Source: Sulfurospirillum sp. (GTDB taxonomy: Bacteria; Campylobacterota; Campylobacteria; Campylobacterales; Sulfurospirillaceae). Taken from it: a DNA stretch of 44,624 nucleotides. The stretch covers positions 1 through 44,624 of the forward strand of contig JADGDR010000015.1 in NCBI GenBank assembly GCA_016744795.1, given 5' to 3'. A program made the translations under genes and the position numbers. How positions within the stretch are numbered: the first letter of the stretch is position 1; each line of letters opens with the position of its first letter. This document shows, one piece after another, positions 12,688 to 37,442 of the stretch. The notes beneath the pieces were generated by a model, which ran no database searches, was not told where the DNA came from, and worked only from the letters and a program-made list of their open reading frames with translations.

Positions 12688-12693
12688 ACAAAA

Positions 12694-12718
12694 CCTCCTA
12701 TAAGATTATTATAGGAGA
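12694..12718 (-). promoter_or_regulatory. Hairpin that buries the Shine-Dalgarno of the diguanylate cyclase
   Basis: A perfect 9-bp inverted repeat, CTCCTATAA (12695-12703) and TTATAGGAG (12709-12717), with a 5-nt loop lies between the desulforubrerythrin stop and the GGDEF gene start at 12687. Read on the minus strand, the 3' arm contains five of the six bases of the SD AGGAGG, so the hairpin would hide the ribosome-binding site. It could also act as a weak terminator for the upstream gene, although only TTTT follows. Confidence 0.6.
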
Positions 12719-12732
12719 TTATAACTAAAAGA

Positions 12733-13386
12733 TTATTTTTTTGAATTTAATCTTGATTGGTACTTTTTGTCATGATCACATACTGGGCATTTTTCTAAAG
12801 CTTTTTTCCCATAATGTACATGTCCACAGACTTCACAGATCCAAGCTTCATCTGAATCTTCACTCAAATGTTCTGCACCACTTTCAAGTCTTTCTAGAAG
12901 CATCTTATACATATTTTCATGTTCAACTTCGATTTTTCCTATACCTTTAAAAAGTCTAGCAGCTTCGTTATGACCCTCTTGCTTTGCTATAGCTGCAAAA
13001 TCTGGATACATAGTAACGTTTTCATAGCTCTCACCCTCAGCTGCTGCAATTAAATTAGCTTTTGTATCACCAAAATTCTCTTCTCCAGCCATTCTATGAC
13101 AGAGTGCTAATTCCATTTTTGCATGTTGCTTTTCATTGTTTGCTGCTCTTTGAAAATGTTCAGCAATATCACGGAAACCCTCTTTTTGTGCAACTTTAGC
13201 AAAATATTCATACTTGTTTCTTGCTTGTGATTCACCAGCAAATGCTTTCATAAGGTTTACCATAGTTAAATTCTCAGTAACACATTCCATGTCCTGACCA
13301 CAACAGGATAAAGTTCCTCCACCTACATTTTGAACTTCAACTTCATTACCACATTTATTACATTTATAACTCTCATATTGACGCAT
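12733..13386 (-). CDS. rrc: Desulforubrerythrin (Rrc-type peroxide reductase)
   Basis: A 217-residue three-domain non-haem iron protein. The N-terminus is a desulforedoxin-like iron site (C9, C12 and the pair C28-C29). The middle is a rubrerythrin four-helix domain with di-iron ligands in GESQARNKYEYFAK, ANNEKQHAKME, GESYENVTMYPDFA and GKIEVEHENMY. The C-terminus is a rubredoxin domain with CEVC and CPVC. This layout is known from Campylobacter jejuni Rrc, which reduces hydrogen peroxide in the cytoplasm. A consensus promoter lies at 13485-13513 with a possible Fur/PerR site in its spacer. The mRNA would have a leader of about 90 nt. Confidence 0.9.
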   Translation of the reverse strand: MRQYESYKCNKCGNEVEVQNVGGGTLSCCGQDMECVTENLTMVNLMKAFAGESQARNKYEYFAKVAQKEGFRDIAEHFQRAANNEKQHAKMELALCHRMAGEENFGDTKANLIAAAEGESYENVTMYPDFAAIAKQEGHNEAARLFKGIGKIEVEHENMYKMLLERLESGAEHLSEDSDEAWICEVCGHVHYGKKALEKCPVCDHDKKYQSRLNSKK

Positions 13387-13484: not shown

Positions 13485-13513
13485 AGTATAGCATAATGAT
13501 AATTATTTGTCAA
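13485..13513 (-). promoter_or_regulatory. Sigma-70 promoter of desulforubrerythrin with a Fur/PerR-like box in the spacer
   Basis: On the minus strand TTGACA (13508-13513) and TATACT (13485-13490) are separated by exactly 17 nt. The spacer and its edge contain ATAATGATAATTATTT on the plus strand (13493-13508), resembling Fur and PerR operators built from ATAAT inverted units. A repressor bound there would block polymerase directly. This suits a peroxide-defence gene, but which regulator binds is inference. Confidence 0.65.
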
Positions 13514-13541: not shown

Positions 13542-13612
13542 TAAAAAATGGCGTTTAAGTGGGCAACTTAAACGCCTAATTTATATTTACAAAAAGGAGG
13601 TTTTTGTACTAA
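13542..13612 (-). ncRNA. Small RNA candidate, copy A (CCUCC-loop hairpin plus UGCCC-loop terminator)
   Basis: Read on the minus strand, TATAAT (13615-13620) is followed 7 nt later by the hairpin ACAAAAACCTCCTTTTTGT (13589-13607; 7-8 bp stem, CCTCC loop), a 12-nt A+T-rich linker, and a perfect 11-bp hairpin with loop TGCCC (13550-13576) running into six T. Loops and layout match the copies at 14672 and 37279, while the stem sequences differ, as expected for a structured RNA. The element lies between rrc and nudC and ends just before the rrc promoter. No open reading frame fits it. Confidence 0.72.
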
Positions 13613-13650
13613 GAATTATATTCTCTTGTTTTAAATACAATTTAAACTTA

Positions 13651-13668
13651 TTTACAATATATTGTAAA
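13651..13668. promoter_or_regulatory. 18-bp palindrome directly before nudC, possible operator
   Basis: TTTACAATATATTGTAAA is a perfect palindrome ending 1 nt before the nudC ATG. No ribosome-binding site is visible in this space, so the mRNA may be leaderless or poorly translated. A dimeric repressor could bind here; the regulator is unknown. The arms TTTAC and GTAAA are the same as in the TTTACATGTAAA family but with a longer centre. Confidence 0.5.
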
Positions 13669-13669
13669 C

Positions 13670-14671: not shown

Positions 14672-14747
14672 CAAAAAAAAAGCGTCCGGAGCGGGCAACT
14701 CGGACGCTATTTAGGTTCTATCTACAAAAAGGAGGTTTTTGTTTTCT
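14672..14747 (-). ncRNA. Small RNA candidate, copy B (CCUCC-loop hairpin plus UGCCC-loop terminator)
   Basis: On the minus strand a perfect TATAAT (14754-14759) is followed 11 nt later by ACAAAAACCTCCTTTTTGT (14724-14742), a linker beginning AGATAGAACC, and a G+C-rich hairpin (14681-14708; 8 bp, one bulge, then 3 bp) whose loop contains TGCCC. The hairpin runs into nine T, a textbook terminator. The linker start TTTTTGTAGATAGAAC is shared exactly with copy C. The nearest gene upstream on this strand is the deoxyribosyltransferase, whose stop lies about 45 nt before the -10 box. Confidence 0.78.
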
Positions 14748-14803
14748 AATAAAATTATATACAATTGAACTAAACATAAAACTAACAAACCATAAATAAA
14801 AAG

Positions 14804-15283
14804 TTAACCTAGACTTTTTATAGCCTTTTTAAACCCGCCCTCTACAATACTACAAGCACTAAACATCAAATTCAAAGAAAAATTAAAATCCTCTATAAAC
14901 ATACCATCTTTATCTACAACATCATCTTTTTTTGCTTTACATGTAGACTTTTGAAGATAACTTCTAATATCGTCCATATAAATAACTACCTCTTTTTTCA
15001 AAGCCAAGGCATACCCAATCTCAAATGCAGTTCCGCTATCTAGTTCATCACCTCTAAAAGGATTGCCATTTGCAACAACTATATCGCACATTTCAATAAG
15101 TTCAATATTCTTTTTATATATAAACTCACGGGCAATATCTTTACTCCAAGACTTGTCAATTTGGTTGTCAAGTGGGTATAAACCATCAAACCCAAACTCT
15201 TTACATGTAGACTTATATGCCTCACCTATTTTAATGCTATCTGGTTTGAAGACATCAAACCCTGCTATGTATATTTTTTTCAT
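14804..15283 (-). CDS. Nucleoside 2-deoxyribosyltransferase family protein
   Basis: A 159-residue cytosolic protein of the Ndt family, which moves deoxyribose between bases or hydrolyses deoxynucleotides. Visible signatures are the N-terminal strand KIYIAGFDVF, the nucleotide-contacting loop LYPLDNQ, MCDIVVANGNPFRGDELDSGTAFEIGYAL with the likely catalytic Glu in GTAFEIGYA, and the following strand VVIYMDD. Its substrate cannot be read from sequence. It is divergent from the cupin gene, with 35 nt between. Palindrome copies are at 14938 and 15202, both encoding Ser-Thr-Cys-Lys. Confidence 0.85.
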   Translation of the reverse strand: MKKIYIAGFDVFKPDSIKIGEAYKSTCKEFGFDGLYPLDNQIDKSWSKDIAREFIYKKNIELIEMCDIVVANGNPFRGDELDSGTAFEIGYALALKKEVVIYMDDIRSYLQKSTCKAKKDDVVDKDGMFIEDFNFSLNLMFSACSIVEGGFKKAIKSLG

Positions 15284-37278: not shown

Positions 37279-37367
37279 AAAAAAAAAGCGCTCTTGGTGG
37301 GCAACCAGAGCGCTTGATTTTAAAATTTATAAGTTCTATCTACAAAAAGGAGGTTTTTGTCTTGGTA
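37279..37367 (-). ncRNA. Small RNA candidate, copy C (CCUCC-loop hairpin plus UGCCC-loop terminator)
   Basis: On the minus strand TATACT (37373-37378) is followed 12 nt later by ACAAAAACCTCCTTTTTGT (37342-37360), a linker starting AGATAGAAC as in copy B but longer (about 26 nt), and a G+C-rich hairpin (37286-37315; 12 bp with one bulged base) with loop TGCCC running into nine T. It lies between DUF523 and the peptide-binding protein gene on the same strand and would end 26 nt before that gene's start, so it is not a coding extension. Confidence 0.78.
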
Positions 37368-37442
37368 ATGAAAGTATATACCTTTTGTCTAAACACTCTT
37401 TTAACCATTTATTAACAAAAAGTTAATGAGACTATTTTTATC

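Follow-up and report, generated by a model that had tools for sequence, protein, structure and literature searches.

In several late genes of bacteriophage T4 (I-TevI, I-TevII, I-TevIII, segB, soc and e), the ribosome binding site is hidden within a hairpin (PMC2988022). On RNA read in from upstream the Shine-Dalgarno (SD) sequence of these genes is hidden, and the transcript from the gene's own promoter does not include the 5' arm, so that its SD stays free, an arrangement that is also predicted for a diguanylate cyclase (DGC) gene in the 44,624-nt stretch of Sulfurospirillum sp. DNA analyzed here (the window). Unlike the T4 late genes, the DGC gene is a chromosomal bacterial gene, has a conserved sigma-70-type TATAAT rather than a phage late promoter, and its SD hiding and start sites are predicted only.

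The window also carries small RNAs (sRNAs) with anti-SD segments, for which three described systems offer comparisons. The NmsRA and NmsRB sRNAs of Neisseria (PMC5362039) resemble them in being repeated sRNAs, sometimes in tandem, that carry conserved C/U-rich anti-SD segments; however, the NmsR targets were shown by experiment, whereas the Sulfurospirillum sRNAs are likened to them by layout and not by sequence relation, and have candidate targets only. The Rhizobiales SmelA075 and SmelA099 RNAs, with their CCUCCUCCC loops (PMC3927594), likewise present an anti-SD motif in hairpin loops, but they have three or four such hairpins per RNA and a longer motif, and the stem around CCUCC is lost in several of the Sulfurospirillum copies. 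Within the same phylum, the RepG sRNA of Helicobacter pylori acts on a leader by base pairing, and its authors did not find a repG homologue in Sulfurospirillum (PMC8295292).

The rubrerythrin-cyclase junction

The DGC gene encodes a protein with GGDEF and dCache_1 domains (Pfam, 5.1e-42 and 1.4e-12, respectively) in which an RWGGEEF motif can be read from the sequence (Table 1). It lies downstream of a rubrerythrin gene (rbr) on the minus strand, across a gap of 45 bases (TAA-TCTTTTAGTTATAATCTCCTATAATAATCTTATAGGAGGTTTTGT-ATG) in which a terminator scan found no terminator-like site. The leader described in the sequence-only reading, AGGAGG followed by TTTTGT and ATG, is present on the minus strand (12699-12685). 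DGC orthologues occur in 24 relatives, with a readable leader in 23, and the rbr-DGC order is common to S. arcachonense DSM 9755 (G005, contig NZ_JFBL01000003) and another relative, G010. Separately, a strong promoter-like site for rbr (TTGACA-17-TATACT with TG) lies at 13485-13513 on the minus strand and overlaps an AT-rich sequence, ATAATGATAATTAT, that resembles a Fur/PerR-type site.

Table 1. Features of the locus and of the small RNA genes in the window
Feature	Position	Strand	Basis or description
Diguanylate cyclase (DGC) gene, 478 aa	11251..12687	-	dCache_1 + GGDEF, RWGGEEF motif
DGC start ATG	12687-12685	-	sequence
TTTTGT spacer between SD and ATG	12693-12688	-	sequence
DGC Shine-Dalgarno (SD), AGGAGG	12699-12694	-	sequence
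Hairpin predicted to hide the SD	12692..12720	-	9 perfect pairs; 12 by folding
Inner TATAAT, candidate -10 box, 20 nt before ATG, within hairpin 5' arm	12708..12713	-	position conserved in DGC orthologues
Second TATAAT, 30 nt before ATG	12718..12723	-	sequence; promoter scan TTCAAA-16-TATAAT
Rubrerythrin gene (rbr)	12733..13386	-	Pfam Rubrerythrin 1.6e-25; upstream of DGC, proposed source of read-through RNA
Small RNA copy A	13545..13610	-	ACAAAAA-CCTCC-TTTTTGT + terminator hairpin, loop TGCCC; covariance model E 1e-8; fold z -6.7
Small RNA copy B	14676..14745	-	covariance model; fold
Small RNA copy C	37282..37363	-	covariance model; fold

The SD forms part of an inverted repeat of nine perfect pairs around a 5-nt loop, CTCCTATAA (12717-12709) and TTATAGGAG (12703-12695), which bears out the 9-bp hairpin seen in the sequence-only reading; in the predicted fold the stem grows to 12 pairs (12720-12709 with 12703-12692), with an energy of -13.6 kcal/mol and a z-score of -3.1 relative to shuffled sequences. 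Among 295 sampled SD-bearing leaders, it is the longest perfect inverted repeat overlapping an SD (9 bp, the next being 7 bp), and it is therefore not at the level expected by chance. The S. arcachonense junction carries the corresponding arms, CTCCTGTAA-15 nt-TTACAGGAG, in which one pair is changed on both sides, from A-T to G-C, a compensatory change that keeps the pairing. This conservation spans two genomes, with loops of 5 and 15 nt, and the compensation consists of that one changed pair. The shared pattern, CTCCTRTAA...TTAYAGGAG, occurs at only four places in 44 genomes, compared with none in the backwards control; two of the four are outside the rbr-DGC junction, one within a coding frame and one after a different ORF.

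Our reading of the hairpin, which we hold with somewhat better than even confidence, is that it acts as a read-through insulator that shields DGC translation from transcription entering from rbr. RNA from rbr would carry both arms, fold and hide the SD, so that DGC would hardly be translated from it. The main rival takes the hairpin to be chiefly an element of the rbr 3' end, either a 3' stabilizer or a weak intrinsic terminator, that happens to include the DGC SD. Its position matches that of the hairpins found after rbr in other genomes (g5, g3 and G010, the last having a good U-run), and it is followed by a short TTTT; however, the site was not called terminator-like, its run reads TTTTGT, the 15-nt loop of S. 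arcachonense would be poor for a terminator, and in both species the 3' arm is the SD itself. We regard this rival as unlikely.

Hairpins after rbr are found in many relatives, and the one in G010 (GGGAG-ATTTA-CTCCC-TTTTT), which is terminator-like, stands in the rbr-DGC gap ahead of the DGC leader. It would be another way of insulating DGC and fits a common requirement to keep rbr and DGC apart, and it also supports the rival of a weak rbr terminator in the window; either way, the window hairpin sits at the rbr-DGC boundary. Such an SD hairpin is absent from the Sulfurospirillum cyclases that have a same-strand gene just upstream, and thus insulation is not generally needed.

A candidate promoter within the hairpin

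The 5' arm of the hairpin coincides with a candidate promoter of DGC. TATAAT or TATACT occurs 18-22 nt before the ATG in 22 of 23 orthologous DGC leaders; in the window this box lies within the 5' arm, with a second TATAAT 10 bp further upstream, and in S. arcachonense TATAAT sits in the hairpin loop. Transcription starting about 7 nt past either box, as predicted, would leave out the CTCC (12717-12714) of the 5' arm. Since the -10 box is contained in or overlaps that arm, the transcript from the DGC promoter should lack it, and only RNA coming from rbr should carry the whole hairpin.

Computed accessibilities differ between these RNAs. In the leader of an RNA reading in from rbr, the predicted probability that the SD is unpaired is 0.00-0.04, whereas on an RNA starting from the inner TATAAT it is 0.8-0.98 (last base excepted); an RNA starting from the outer TATAAT gives mixed values (0.16-0.93). 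With the SD hidden on the rbr RNA and mostly free on the own-promoter RNA, the hairpin should act on read-through and not on the gene's own message. The proposal that the hairpin keeps the gene quiet thus stands in part: it applies to read-through RNA, where the SD is predicted to be hidden, but probably not to the mRNA from the DGC promoter, whose -10 box is contained in or overlaps the 5' arm.

The overlap of palindrome and promoter also bears on a further alternative, namely that a repressor of DGC binds the inverted repeat as a DNA operator covering the -10 box. The palindrome is centered on the promoter, and its halves stand 10 bp further apart in S. arcachonense than in the window, a difference of about one helical turn. 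The spacing of half-sites rarely changes by that much, though, the palindrome has no second copy elsewhere in either genome (G000 or G005), and in both species the SD coincides with its 3' half, which together make an operator very unlikely. Under the favored insulator model, RNA started at the DGC promoter would lack the CUCC and leave the SD free, and DGC output would depend on the DGC promoter rather than on transcription of rbr. If true, this would be a compact chromosomal case of the T4 design, with one stretch of DNA serving as both promoter and translational lock, and the strong induction of a neighbor would be kept from spilling into c-di-GMP signaling.

The small RNA family

The small RNAs that the sequence-only reading invoked prove to be real genes: their core and promoter are conserved, and their terminator stem covaries. 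They constitute a genuine multi-copy family that is separate from the DGC hairpin. The window contains exactly three occurrences of ACAAAAACCTCC, all on the minus strand (13596, 14731 and 37349), each forming the 5' part of one of the three sRNA genes. Each gene has a -10 box, CCTCC between ACAAAAA and TTTTTGT, a linker, a terminator stem with a TTGCCC loop and a T-run. A covariance model built from copies B and C detects the family in 39 of 44 Sulfurospirillaceae genomes and in none of 56 genomes of the other families of the order, with one to six copies per genome, sometimes in tandem. In line with this distribution, an exact-pattern scan of 84,980 species matched almost only Sulfurospirillum and Sulfurospirillaceae; the handful of other matches, in MAGs and genomes, appear to reflect chance or mis-binned contigs.

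Covariation in the terminator stem is strong, with changes on both sides in 9 of 11 pairs and an observed score reached by none of 500 shuffles. The ACCTCCTTTTTGT core is nearly invariant, whereas the 5' arm is variable (ACAATTA, ACACATA), and hence the family does not keep the 5' stem; these variants form none when folded by themselves. A known Rfam family was sought and rejected: the window has no Rfam match at the gathering score, and a permissive search returned no credible candidate, the best sub-threshold matches lying far below their gathering scores. The family is of wider interest in being conserved across the Sulfurospirillaceae, having no Rfam match at the gathering score and carrying a testable promoter code.

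With regard to that promoter, four GTTTA-like units with an exact 11-bp period (-49, -38, -27 and -16 from the -10 box TATACT) are conserved family-wide, at 14771-14808, 37390-37427 and about 13632-13669 in the window (all minus strand) and upstream of the sRNA copies of relatives. Their layout is that of PhoB/OmpR-type response-regulator sites such as PHO boxes, which are 11-nt direct repeats (PMC4415409). A genome search for other genes with the 11-bp repeat box gave none clearly above control except sRNA copies B and C. Additionally, an sRNA copy lies directly upstream of rbr on the same strand in G000, G001 and G003 (13545-13610, L257 and L265), its core sitting 150-214 nt ahead of the rbr start.

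Predicted pairing of the small RNAs with leaders

The sequence-only reading had proposed that the sRNAs set c-di-GMP synthesis by pairing with AGGAGGTTTTGT of the DGC mRNA and blocking (or freeing) its ribosome site. The pairing itself was reproduced by RNA duplex prediction, in which ACAAAAACCTCC forms 10 unbroken pairs with AGGAGGTTTT of the leader, plus GT after one bulged A (-14.7 kcal/mol). The energy of the duplex formed with the sRNA core was used to rank 385 gene starts, which simple ORF calling gave in the window and in 400 kb of stretches sampled from the genome; the DGC leader came 5th, and 15th when the 16S tail was the partner. DGC is no more than 2.1 kb away from copies A and B, and on the short own-promoter RNA the predicted net gain is -8.4 kcal/mol; it drops to -4.9 on the hairpin RNA, where the predicted joint fold makes no use of the SD. 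Across the 385 leaders, however, sRNA-pairing energy correlates with 16S-tail pairing energy (r = 0.79), such that the sRNA-pairing rank largely follows SD strength. The leaders that outdo DGC include those of a Cache-domain membrane protein, a DcuA/B transporter and a TRAP DctQ protein, and AGGAGGTTTT occurs within reach of an ATG three times in the genome, one of them inside a coding frame, which equals the backwards control (3).

Comparison among relatives gives a similar picture. The 10-bp match is unique to the window's genome among 24 orthologous leaders, the other 23 offering 5-7 nt that are mostly the SD itself, and the extra pairs come from the 5' half of the sRNA (ACAAAAA), which varies among relatives, whereas the other half is nearly invariant. 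S. arcachonense is a case in point: it has the same locus and three sRNA copies, the best of which shares the core of the window's sRNAs, but the DGC leader there, ACAGGAGTTTTG, holds only 5 nt of complement (-8.5 kcal/mol). Because the extended match is missing in relatives, including this one, a special target relation is without comparative support. DGC as a particular target was accordingly rejected, since the pairing was neither conserved nor unique in the genome, and regulation of c-di-GMP synthesis by this route appears decidedly improbable. A relation private to the window's species is conceivable, and any pairing of the sRNAs with the DGC leader is for the most part what would be expected of any strong SD. 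This corrects a tempting inference, as any C/U-rich sRNA seems to target any strong SD.

A combination of the two layers can also be envisaged, in which sibling anti-SD sRNAs restricted to the family, themselves under a response-regulator-type promoter, would control DGC only on the RNA from its own promoter, and the hairpin would make the rbr read-through RNA immune to ribosomes and sRNAs alike, placing two RNA layers on one c-di-GMP gene. We consider this scheme highly improbable.

Natural SD sequences are A-rich upstream. AAAAAGGAGG, which is complementary to the invariant half of the sRNA, is present in about five leaders per genome family-wide, compared with about one in the backwards control; owing to that A-richness this excess shows no targeting, and it was rejected as evidence. 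Among other candidate targets, the leaders of DcuA/B, TRAP DctQ and TRAP DctP rank in the top seven of the 385 for sRNA pairing (L136:8214, L147:13247 and L149:342, respectively). The long DcuA and DctP matches are not kept in most relatives (mean energies of -9.8 and -9.1 kcal/mol versus -8.4 and -8.7 for the 16S tail), and C4-dicarboxylate transport was set aside as a weak lead given this loss. The DctQ leader (L147:13180-13247) has a long inverted repeat of its own, GGCACTTAC...GTAAGTGCC, just before AGGAGGTTTTT-ATG.
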